Origin: Candidatus Koribacter versatilis Ellin345
GTDB lineage: Bacteria; Acidobacteriota; Terriglobia; Terriglobales; Acidobacteriaceae
Direction: 5' to 3'
Length of the DNA stretch: 64,000 nt
Assembly: GCF_000014005.1 (NCBI RefSeq)
Contig: NC_008009.1
Location: 5,146,001 to 5,210,000 of the forward strand
Shown here: in pieces, positions 35,132 through 38,705 of the stretch
How the letters are laid out: every line of letters starts with the position of its first letter
Numbering within the stretch: the first letter of the stretch is position 1
Translations under genes and position numbers: made by a program
Notes under the pieces: generated by a model
Seen by the model: the letters and a program-made list of their open reading frames with translations, nothing else
Told to the model about the DNA's origin: nothing
Database searches by the model: none

Positions 35132-35180
35132 TTGGGTGCCTCACTCTATCGCCGCTTTTTGGCGATAGGGTGGGGGTTTT
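35132..35180 (+). repeat. C-family hairpin forming the phosphatase gene's end
   Basis: GGGTGCCTCACTCTATCGCC, loop, then GGCGATAGGGTGGGGGTTTTT. Read on the minus strand it encodes the last residues PHPIAKKRR and stop codon of the phosphatase. The inner stem TCTATCGCC/GGCGATAGG is unique among C copies. Confidence 0.82.
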
Positions 35181-35634
35181 TCTCAACCAACTTTTTCTCC
35201 CACGTCTTCACAAACCGCTCCACGCTCTGCACGTACACGTCCGCGAAGTCCACCACGTAACGGCGGCCCTGGATCAACTCCATCGCGTCTTCCAGTTCCC
35301 ATCCCGTCGCGCGCATCACTGCCAGCGCCATCATCGGCGCCCGATGCACTCCCGCTGCGCAATGGATGAACACTTTCGCGTCGTTGTATTCGAACGCCGC
35401 AAGCGCAAACTTTACCCCGCGCTCCAGCAGCTCATACGGCTTCGGCTTGAAGTCATCGTCCGTCGGGTTCCACAGCACCGCGACGCCCGCTTCGCGTCCC
35501 AGCGCCGTGTCGTCGAACTCAATCTGCATGTCGATCACGTGGGTCACACCCTGGCGCACCAGCTCGGCCATCTTCTCCGAGACCCAGATCCCGCCCCCCA
35601 CCGCTACCCGGTCTGTTACCCAAGTTATGTCCAT
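35146..35634 (-). CDS. Dual-specificity phosphatase-like protein
   Basis: A 162-residue protein tyrosine/dual-specificity phosphatase. The signature loop HCAAGVHRAP (about residues 97-106) gives the CX5R catalytic pocket, and an earlier DDDFKPKPYELLERG holds a likely general acid Asp. It begins DITWVTDRVAVGGG, a typical DSP N-terminal strand. It may dephosphorylate host or phage proteins. Its C-terminal PHPIAKKRR is encoded by a C-type palindromic repeat, so the last residues are recently acquired. Cargo gene between the possible small terminase gene and the spike genes. Confidence 0.88.
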   Translation of the reverse strand: MDITWVTDRVAVGGGIWVSEKMAELVRQGVTHVIDMQIEFDDTALGREAGVAVLWNPTDDDFKPKPYELLERGVKFALAAFEYNDAKVFIHCAAGVHRAPMMALAVMRATGWELEDAMELIQGRRYVVDFADVYVQSVERFVKTWEKKLVEKNPHPIAKKRR

Positions 35635-36360: not shown

Positions 36361-36417
36361 AAAGCCCGGCGTCTTCGCCGAGCTTTCACTGCAAATAAAG
36401 ATCGGGGCTTTCGCCCC
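36361..36417 (-). terminator. Two tandem hairpins with T tracts (minus strand)
   Basis: First stem AAAGCCCGGCG/CGCCGAGCTTT (36361-36386) with TTTTTATTT on the minus strand; second GGGGC/GCCCC (36404-36417) with CTTTATTTG. Both lie upstream of the 174-aa gene. The 243 bp to the right (36418-36660) are AT-rich with no gene, and include inverted arms TGACAA/TTGTCA at 36571-36588 that may be an operator. Confidence 0.7.
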
Positions 36418-36660
36418 TCCGTCTTCGCCGCCGCTTCTTACTGCGGCGTCTCGTTTCACTCTATCTAAGTTCAGAATATCAACTCAGAGGGGGTAAACCG
36501 GACACTTTTTTGAAATTTATTTCTCCGTTTGTTTCAGCAGCTTGCAAAGAAAACCGCCAAAAATGCCTCTTGACAACAATTTTTGTCACTCGGGGAAATT
36601 CCTACCAAGGTGGTACAAATTGCGCCCTTTGTGGGAAGTGTTTTTCAAACTACAAAGAAA

Positions 36661-36682
36661 AGGGGCGCATGCTCGCGCCCCT
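36661..36682 (-). terminator. Intrinsic terminator after sigma-like gene
   Basis: 8-bp stem AGGGGCGC/GCGCCCCT with a 6-nt loop, 19 bp past the stop codon at 36701 on the minus strand. TTTTCTTTG follows. Confidence 0.82.
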
Positions 36683-36700
36683 CGATCACTTCCAGACGCC

Positions 36701-37339
36701 CTACGCAAACGCCAATACTTTTGCTTTCGCCGGCACGCCTTCCGACCCACACCCTTTCTTTGGAGGCAGGACGTGCTCGAGTGACCACGCATTTCGTCGC
36801 AACACCGGACAGCCCTCGAACCATCCTTCTCGAGCCAATTCGTCTCCGATCCAGTCCATCGGCTCGATCAAACGAAAGCGCAGCAGGATCTCACTCATCT
36901 CATCAATCGCGTCGCAATAGATCCGCCGCGCACTGCGTTCTTCGCATCCGATCCGCCTCGCAGACTCCTCCTTCGAGTATTCCTCAAAGATGTTCAGGAC
37001 GATGAACCGCCGCGCCGTTTCCCCCAAACGCTCCAGGCATTTTCCGAAGTCGGTCACGAAAATCACCAACTCCTCGAAACCGGTCACCTTATAGCTGGTT
37101 ACCTTGGCCCGGAACATTTCTCCGCCCAGCACTGACGGCAAGCGCCCCAGATCCAGCGAGACAGTTAAGTATTTCTGCAACAATGCAACTGTCTCGTACC
37201 GGTACTGGAACAGCTCCGAGCGGAACGCCTGGGCATCCCTCTCGCTCACTCGCCCCGTCAGCACGCTTGCCATCCTGAGCGAAGCGTGCGCAGTACGCGT
37301 AGTCGAAGGACTCCTATCCTCACGATCCGGTTCTCTCAT
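36701..37339 (-). CDS. Phage sigma-70-region-4-like regulator (repeat-derived N-terminus)
   Basis: A 212-residue protein. A helix-turn-helix resembling sigma region 4 is near residues 120-150 (IFEEYSKEESARRIGCEERSARRIYCDAIDEM), as in ArpU/RinA-type late-gene regulators. Residues 9-23 (RSPSTTRTAHASLRM) are the translation of an A-family repeat. The start at 37339 is supported by its 4-bp overlap (ATGA) with the zinc-ribbon gene, so the repeat really is within the coding sequence. It may drive the phage structural genes, but no target promoter could be confirmed. Confidence 0.68.
   Translation of the reverse strand: MREPDREDRSPSTTRTAHASLRMASVLTGRVSERDAQAFRSELFQYRYETVALLQKYLTVSLDLGRLPSVLGGEMFRAKVTSYKVTGFEELVIFVTDFGKCLERLGETARRFIVLNIFEEYSKEESARRIGCEERSARRIYCDAIDEMSEILLRFRLIEPMDWIGDELAREGWFEGCPVLRRNAWSLEHVLPPKKGCGSEGVPAKAKVLAFA
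37270..37320 (+). repeat. A-family repeat inside the sigma-like coding region
   Basis: CCATCCTGAGCG, stem GCGTGCGCAGTACGCG, then TAGTCGAAGGACTCCTATCC. It supplies the N-terminal residues of the regulator; the flanking frame stays open on both sides. Confidence 0.83.
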
Positions 37340-37521
37340 CGCGCACCTCCCGCCAACCCGCACAACTGCTTCTCCTCCGGACGAAACTCCGAAGGCGCCA
37401 GGAACACCCGCGCCATCTCCCGGGTACATCCCGCGCAATAAACCTGCTGACTTCCCTCTTGCCGCAGTCCTAAAGTGCCGCAGCGTTCGCAATATTTCAT
37501 TTCCAAATGTTGCATTTCCAT
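37336..37521 (-). CDS. Small zinc-ribbon protein
   Basis: A 61-residue protein with two CxxC knuckles (YCERCG near residue 10 and YCAGCTREM near 28), forming a zinc ribbon typical of phage and transcription-associated small proteins, followed by APSEFRPEEKQLCGLAGG. The start at 37521 has AGGAAAAGGG about 7 bp upstream. Two other ATGs (37515, 37500) are possible. It overlaps the sigma-like gene's start by 4 bp, so it is translationally coupled and probably acts with it at early or late promoters. Confidence 0.65.
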   Translation of the reverse strand: MEMQHLEMKYCERCGTLGLRQEGSQQVYCAGCTREMARVFLAPSEFRPEEKQLCGLAGGAR

Positions 37522-37588
37522 GAATGGTCCCTTTTCCTGCATGTAATGATCTTTAAAAAGACAGGGCTCCCCAGAAACCCCTATCCGC

Positions 37589-37617
37589 TGTAGTAAAACA
37601 GTTAACGTTTTTCGCAA
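37589..37617 (-). promoter_or_regulatory. Candidate phage promoter/operator with GTTAAC palindrome
   Basis: Outer arms AAAAC/GTTTT enclose GTTAAC (37595-37611). On the minus strand TTGCGA (37617-37612), a 17-bp spacer exactly spanning the palindrome and ACTACA (37594-37589) give a weak -35/-10 pair facing the zinc-ribbon gene. The repressor encoded at 37989 could bind here; this is inference. Confidence 0.3.
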
Positions 37618-37626
37618 CTTTCTCAC

Positions 37627-37970
37627 TGCACGTTTTTCTCCGCGTCTGCTACGATGGGCCGCAATTCCCCCAGTGAGGCTCTATGCTCGTCCCCTTTTAC
37701 GTTGCGCACATCGTTTGTCTTCTTCCACCGGGATGACCTTCGTCCTCCCTCACTTCCTCCTTCCCCCCAGATGTTCACCGTCTAGCCATCCGCAGGCTCG
37801 CCTCTTTCGCAGGCCTGCCGATGTCTCTATTGCCGGCATCGGTCGCTGATACGCAGCAATCCGTGTGCGGCACGAAGGTTTGTCTCTGAACCTGATGGCA
37901 CCTTAGCTCGCCTTGTCGCAGGTAACAAGGGTTGGCTAATACCGTCGGATGTGACTGCAATCACCTTTTT
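37627..37970. other. Non-coding region between early phage genes and repressor
   Basis: About 340 bp without a convincing gene. It includes a local hairpin GCCGATG...CATCGGT (about 37816-37842) and CTTGT...ACAAG (about 37914-37930). It marks the change from C-rich to balanced plus strand. No DnaA box of the TTATCCACA type was found, and no tRNA. Confidence 0.6.
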
Positions 37971-37983
37971 TAGCTGGGAGCTA
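37971..37983 (+). promoter_or_regulatory. Hairpin over the repressor ribosome-binding site
   Basis: TAGCT-GGG-AGCTA, with the GGGAG ribosome-binding motif partly in the loop, lies 5 bp before the ATG at 37989. It could mask the start or be a coincidental short hairpin. Confidence 0.3.
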
Positions 37984-37988
37984 TAGCA

Positions 37989-38705
37989 ATGTTGGGATTT
38001 CTTGAATTACAGGAACAATTGCGCAGGTTACTTCGGTCACGCATCGATCAGGGAGAACTCACCGGGATGATGCTCGCGGAGAAAACCGGCTTCCGCCAAG
38101 CGCATATCTCCAACTTCCTGAACCACAAGCGCGGCCTCTCCTTCGACGCCGTCGACCGCATCCTCGCCGCCGAGGACCTCTCCGTGCTCGATCTGGTTCC
38201 CGCCGACGACATCAACAGCCGCGCTTCCATCCCACCGCCGCCGGAGGATGAGTACGCCAACATCCTGCTCGTCTCGCCGCAGCGCGCCTTTCAGCCGCAG
38301 GTGCATGCGCGCGAAGTTCTGGAGGTGCTGAAGTTCAAGCAAACCTTCCTGCGGCGGATGAAGGCCGAACCCTCGCGCCAGCGCGCGACCTGGCTTCGCT
38401 TCGTGATGATGAAGACCAGCCGCGCCTGCACGGAGGCGATGTCTCCGCGCGTCGGCCCGGGATGCACCGTGCTCCTCGACCGCCACTACAACTCGCTCAC
38501 CGCCTATCGCAAGGGAGAGAAAACCATGTACGCGATTCGCGTCGGAGGCGACACCATCGTCCGATACGCGCACCGCGATGACGACATGCTGGTCCTCGAA
38601 CCCGAGTCTCGCGACGCGCGCACCCGCATCCTCCACATCCCCTCCGACTTGACTGCCGAAGACCTGATCGTCGGCCGCGTCGCCTATGTCAGCATGGAGA
38701 CCTAG
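37989..38705 (+). CDS. CI/C2-type repressor with LexA-like C-terminal domain
   Basis: A 238-residue protein. The N-terminal part is an XRE-type helix-turn-helix (MLAEKTGFRQAHISNFLNHKRGLSFDAVDRI, about 27-57). The C-terminal part has the beta-rich S24/LexA-like shape (SPRVGPGCTVLLDRHYNSL ... MYAIRVGGDTIVRYAHRD), but the catalytic Ser-Lys pair is not confirmed, so self-cleavage is uncertain. It faces away from the phage genes and may repress them, which fits a lysogenic control gene. GGGAG precedes the ATG. Confidence 0.72.
   Translation: MLGFLELQEQLRRLLRSRIDQGELTGMMLAEKTGFRQAHISNFLNHKRGLSFDAVDRILAAEDLSVLDLVPADDINSRASIPPPPEDEYANILLVSPQRAFQPQVHAREVLEVLKFKQTFLRRMKAEPSRQRATWLRFVMMKTSRACTEAMSPRVGPGCTVLLDRHYNSLTAYRKGEKTMYAIRVGGDTIVRYAHRDDDMLVLEPESRDARTRILHIPSDLTAEDLIVGRVAYVSMET

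Follow-up and report, generated by a model that had tools for sequence, protein, structure and literature searches.

A dispersed palindromic repeat lies in frame in the N-terminal coding region of a sigma region 4-like regulator gene of Candidatus Koribacter versatilis

Rickettsia palindromic elements (RPEs) are described as repeats of approximately 150 bp, mostly located within genes, that have entered the reading frames of unrelated proteins (PMC10969869, PMC3733652). Intragenic REPs of the GTAG and CGTC types, surveyed by Di Nocera and colleagues, are short covarying hairpins that are described in the available part of the survey as mostly intergenic, with some copies in genes and some supplying stop codons (PMC3733652). 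The same part cautions that repeats at protein N-termini are suspect, as the start may be misplaced, and Acidobacteria are not among the phyla listed there for the GTAG and CGTC repeats. Here, we describe a palindromic repeat in the coding region of a putative regulator of strain Ellin345. As far as these sources go, the phenomenon is already known in other bacteria from RPEs and intragenic REPs, and the Koribacter case is a new example, which adds a free-living acidobacterium to the protein-coding palindromes best known from Rickettsia. Searches of the open-licence literature for palindromes in Acidobacteria or Koribacter and for the letters of the repeat found no description of it.

The analyzed window is a stretch of 64,000 nucleotides (5146001–5210000) of the one contig, 5,650,368 bases long, that was searched as the genome. 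The regulator frame (37339–36701) sits within a longer open frame and contains the repeat (Table 1). An earlier note on this DNA had read residues 9–23 of the regulator as the translation of a repeat. This reading was confirmed: the residues, RSPSTTRTAHASLRM, are encoded by the repeat core in reverse complement. The core is 40 nt long, and a copy at another genomic site (L045) matches it at all but one base. Similarity among 41 aligned copies extended beyond the core on both sides, from about 6 bases before it to about 22 bases after it, and was weak at the outer edge. The footprint at this locus was therefore set to approximately 66 bp, corresponding to about residues 4–24, and the repeat-derived stretch is thus somewhat longer than in the earlier reading. 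The frame has remained open despite a few bases at which the copy in the regulator does not follow the consensus of the repeat. By reading of the core with consensus flanks, one of the three minus-strand frames and two of the three plus-strand frames are free of stops; hence, it is not unlikely that a copy entering a gene is read through without a stop. We consider it very probable that the repeat came to lie in frame, by insertion or replacement, that the conserved upstream start was kept, and that the extra residues lie in a neutral, disordered tail.

Table 1 Features of the regulator locus (window coordinates)
Feature	Position	Strand	Basis
Repeat core CATCC...AAGGA	37271..37310	+	Strict-pattern match
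Estimated footprint of the palindromic repeat (edges ± several bases)	37266..37331	+	Conservation profile, 41 copies
Six-pair stem with 3-base loop	37284..37298	+	Covariation, folds
Sigma region 4-like regulator, 212 aa, ATG start 37339	36701..37339	-	Alignment, Pfam, fold match
ATGA start/stop overlap with zinc-ribbon gene	37336..37339	-	Sequence, kept in relatives
Shine-Dalgarno (SD) GGAGGT of regulator	37345..37350	-	Sequence, comparison with orthologue
CxxC zinc-ribbon gene upstream, longest frame (own start uncertain)	37336..37626	-	Open frame, relatives
Divergent HTH/S24-type repressor	37989..38705	+	PHROG 4 E 4.8e-07; Pfam below cut-off; 23/29 loci
Phosphatase-like gene downstream	35146..35634	-	Name by motif reading; 17/29 loci

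The core consists of CATCCTGAGCGAAG, a variable hairpin, and NAGTCGAAGGA. The strict pattern CATCCTGAGCGAAG-N{3,33}-AGTCGAAGGA gave 39 matches in the 5.65-Mb genome, and 100 strict copies were obtained when one base was left free; the reversed-pattern control gave none in either search. When only the left half was searched and as many as three mismatches were allowed, 231 matches were obtained as against 10 in the control. The tetranucleotide beside the stem was GNAG, namely GAAG in 39 copies and mostly GGAG among the 61 copies with another base. The pattern was present in 21 of 61 genomes, all of them within the family of the window (21/37 within, 0/24 outside). In 21 copies (17 distinct), 98.0% of the cells of the six-pair stem were paired compared with 79.0% in shuffles, and the covariation score was 0.533 compared with 0.141; none of 500 shuffles was as high in either measure. 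In two of the five stem measures, the number of pairs with both bases changed and the number of different pair types, the copies did not surpass the shuffles. Since the stem covaries across copies, the hairpin seems to matter to the repeat family as such.

As a palindromic repeat dispersed in many copies and found in frame in unrelated protein genes, the element resembles the RPEs as they are described in these reports. The RPEs are about 150 bp long and described there as lying mostly in genes, whereas the Koribacter unit is about 66 bp long and 4 of the 67 copies examined were confirmed in genes. It shares with the intragenic REPs, as presented in the available part of the survey (PMC3733652), the short covarying hairpin, the mostly intergenic location with some copies in genes, and copies that supply stop codons. 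It differs from them in being acidobacterial, a group outside the phyla listed in that part, and, compared with the GTAG type, in having GNAG instead of a fixed GTAG and longer conserved flanks. Neither hallmark of a REP with a RAYT was detected: the hairpin end did not carry a fixed GTAG but the variable GNAG, and no tyrosine transposase was linked to the repeat at the four Y1_Tnp loci of the genome. A full copy was absent from all four loci (about 3.3 kb each), one of which (L065) had a partial left-half match. A RAYT as the mover of the repeat was set aside because no linkage was seen at these loci; a transposase might act from a distance.

The repeat would be extragenic and serve as a leader if translation began downstream, at ATG 37273 or GTG 37264. 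A codon-usage caller indeed preferred GTG 37264, a repeat-derived AGGA lies 8 bases before this codon, and at two other copies (L042 and L055) the gene probably starts only after an open frame that runs through the repeat. The caller was crude: it scored 31 of 40 copies as intergenic, wrongly including the window copy because it chose GTG 37264. The earlier note had placed the start upstream of the repeat on account of the ATGA overlap with the zinc-ribbon gene and had named homologue alignment as a check. This comparison favored the upstream start against the choice of the caller. In 25 of the 29 loci of relatives, the regulator start formed an NTGA overlap with the stop of a frame having at least two CxxC motifs, compared with a background, true sites included, of 34 with two CxxC upstream among all 572 NTGA sites of the same loci at which the upstream frame has a minimum length of 40 aa. 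Three of the 29 loci (L007, L014, and L016) were without the zinc-ribbon overlap. In the fourth exception, L002, which has the ATGA, the upstream frame is cut by the contig end after 25 codons. This locus carries the same-genus orthologue (65% identical; also found as PLWX01000273.1), which keeps the ATGA overlap and the SVLTG motif, lacks the repeat, and has GTA at the position of GTG 37264; its N-terminus is MKDSSRWQHSSVLTG, compared with MREPDREDRSPSTTRTAHASLRMASVLTG in the window gene. Furthermore, the SD sequence GGAGGT, separated from ATG 37339 by a 5-base spacer, is much stronger than the repeat-derived AGGA, and an SD at this start is conserved in relatives. ATG 37339 is therefore well supported by these sequence comparisons, and a downstream start is unlikely. 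Because a conserved overlap between the two genes fixes the start, the usual objection of a start-site error is avoided.

We propose that, in the lineage of the window, the N-terminal coding region of the conserved regulator gained a short, non-autonomous palindromic element of the REP/RPE kind, either as an insertion or in place of part of the previous sequence, and that the element landed in a stop-free frame. Translation would still begin at the conserved ATGA overlap, and the protein would be made with approximately 15 to 21 repeat-encoded residues in its disordered N-terminal tail. After removal of the footprint, about 3 residues were left before SVLTG compared with 10 in the orthologue; thus, as far as is visible, this was not a clean insertion. 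The repeat presumably arrived by a transposition-like event, and its mobility is suggested by its dispersal and by the sites that are empty in relatives. The mobile hairpin that the earlier note saw in a coupled gene pair is accordingly found within the coding region of the second member of the overlapping pair, "mobile" being the part that these indirect signs suggest. Because the tail would already have been free to vary, the insert was probably tolerated and is most likely neutral.

The alignment of 26 regulator sequences showed no conservation before the YR motif (residues 46–47) except the start methionine, and the N-terminal tails were very different in length. These sequences represent 26 of the 31 matched genomes, leaving aside L007, L014, L016, and L030, in which the start or end is unclear, and G010, which has no locus. 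In an AlphaFold model built from a nine-sequence alignment (mean pLDDT 61.1), residues 5–30 had a pLDDT below 50, and confident helices lay within residues 88–154. The residues supplied by the repeat thus belong to a tail that lacks conservation and is predicted to be disordered, and they most likely represent a passenger that the protein tolerates and that would probably do nothing. The tail could instead have been put to use, for example as a basic extension aiding the binding of DNA or RNA polymerase, as it is rich in arginine and its frame has stayed open despite a few departures from the consensus. However, the relatives manage without it, it is predicted to be disordered, and similar peptides occur in unrelated enzymes. 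Such a use is thus highly unlikely.

The description of the protein as sigma-like held in the form of a likeness to sigma-70 region 4. The Sigma70_r4_2 profile was matched by 23 of the 26 family members (E up to 0.1), whereas the window protein alone gave a Pfam E of 0.011, below the curated cut-off. The best Foldseek E for the window protein was 0.025, with no match at 0.001 or better. The matches in profile and fold cover approximately residues 88–154. Unlike ECF sigma factors, the regulator returned no match to region 2, is paired with a zinc ribbon by the NTGA overlap, and lies beside a divergent S24-type repressor.

The earlier note had also suggested that the repeat forms an mRNA hairpin near the start codon that tunes expression of the regulator. 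The covariation of the stem across copies would fit such a role, but the folding analyses did not support it. The minimum energy of 141 nt around the start was -48.0 kcal/mol, compared with a shuffle mean of -49.1 kcal/mol (z +0.33), and 126 of 200 shuffles were at least as stable. The accessibility of the SD was 0.33, compared with 0.32 (sd 0.12) when the repeat was shuffled, and that of the SD and start together was 0.42, compared with 0.37 (sd 0.10) when the repeat alone was shuffled. On the mRNA strand, one G-U pair of the plus-strand stem becomes an A-C mismatch, and the stem had an energy of -3.9 kcal/mol, compared with a median of -9.5 kcal/mol; of 22 copies with the same length, the window copy included, 20 had a stronger stem. 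An expression-tuning hairpin is therefore extremely unlikely. The fold of the region as single-strand DNA was also unremarkable (z -1.22), and an Rfam scan of 36400–38600 returned two chance-level matches below the gathering score, neither at the repeat.

The term "phage regulator" in the earlier note applied in part. Relatives of the regulator were encoded at 11 viral contig loci, several of them with identical proteins, and the CxxC overlap was present in 8 of the 11. One of these loci (L130) carries the chromosomal neighbors, and another (L133) contains replication-type genes, judged by reading of its frames. A search of 50,697 annotated phage records yielded no match to the regulator. It was found in 31 of the 37 genomes searched within the family and in none of the 24 outside. 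Judged by its neighborhood, the window copy does not appear to lie in a prophage of this genome: its neighbors are common to relatives across the family. Their counts (Table 1) come from loci of which some are cut by contig ends, and that of the phosphatase-like gene includes one stretch of 25 aa at a locus edge. The genes between 35146 and 38705, encoding the phosphatase-like protein, the sigma region 4-like regulator, the CxxC zinc ribbon, and the divergent HTH/S24-type repressor, form a family-wide chromosomal module, and viral contigs likewise carry the pair of regulator and zinc ribbon. The module resembles a phage-type switch that resides on the chromosome, and a shared origin with phage regulators, in either direction, is plausible.

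The survey of copies in genes covered 67 of the 100 strict copies. Four copies were accepted as in frame within real conserved genes: that of the regulator and three others, in genes for hydantoinase A, a ribonucleotide reductase, and a glycosyltransferase, with homologues on both sides of the repeat. In hydantoinase A (L041 866–2872), the repeat encodes GPSTARASHASLRM in the same orientation and frame as in the regulator. Three of six relatives (G001, G005, and G022), including the same-genus orthologue, lack 23 residues between well-aligned flanks; the loop evidently varies, as it is shorter by 5, 16, and 18 residues in the other three. In the B12-dependent ribonucleotide reductase (L033 1320–3038), the segment VILSEGAPAPESKD lies in the linker before the C-terminal cysteines, and insertion and replacement are indistinguishable because this linker varies in all relatives. 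In the PMT_2-type glycosyltransferase, the same-genus orthologue has different residues at the site. The copies in the reductase and hydantoinase offer an easy test of the view that the repeat is a harmless passenger. That the repeat, with its stop-free frames, is a recurrent donor of in-frame protein segments in this lineage (the regulator tail, the reductase linker, and the hydantoinase loop), with the regulator segment used as a basic extension, appears very unlikely.

In the same-genus glycosyltransferase (L119), the residues at the repeat site are arginine-rich although different, and are perhaps an independent insert. Frames through the repeat at L145 and L057 were set aside by reading as probable shadow frames, and those at L042 and L055 as N-terminal additions to genes whose starts lie downstream. 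In five further copies (L047, L050, L054, L058, and L144), an upstream frame with coding-like codon use ended within the repeat as LSS-stop, and the repeat seems to supply the last residues and the stop of the neighboring gene. The repeat is clustered in the window, as 7 of the 39 strict GAAG-type copies of the genome were located in its first 37.3 kb (1878–37310), all on the plus strand.
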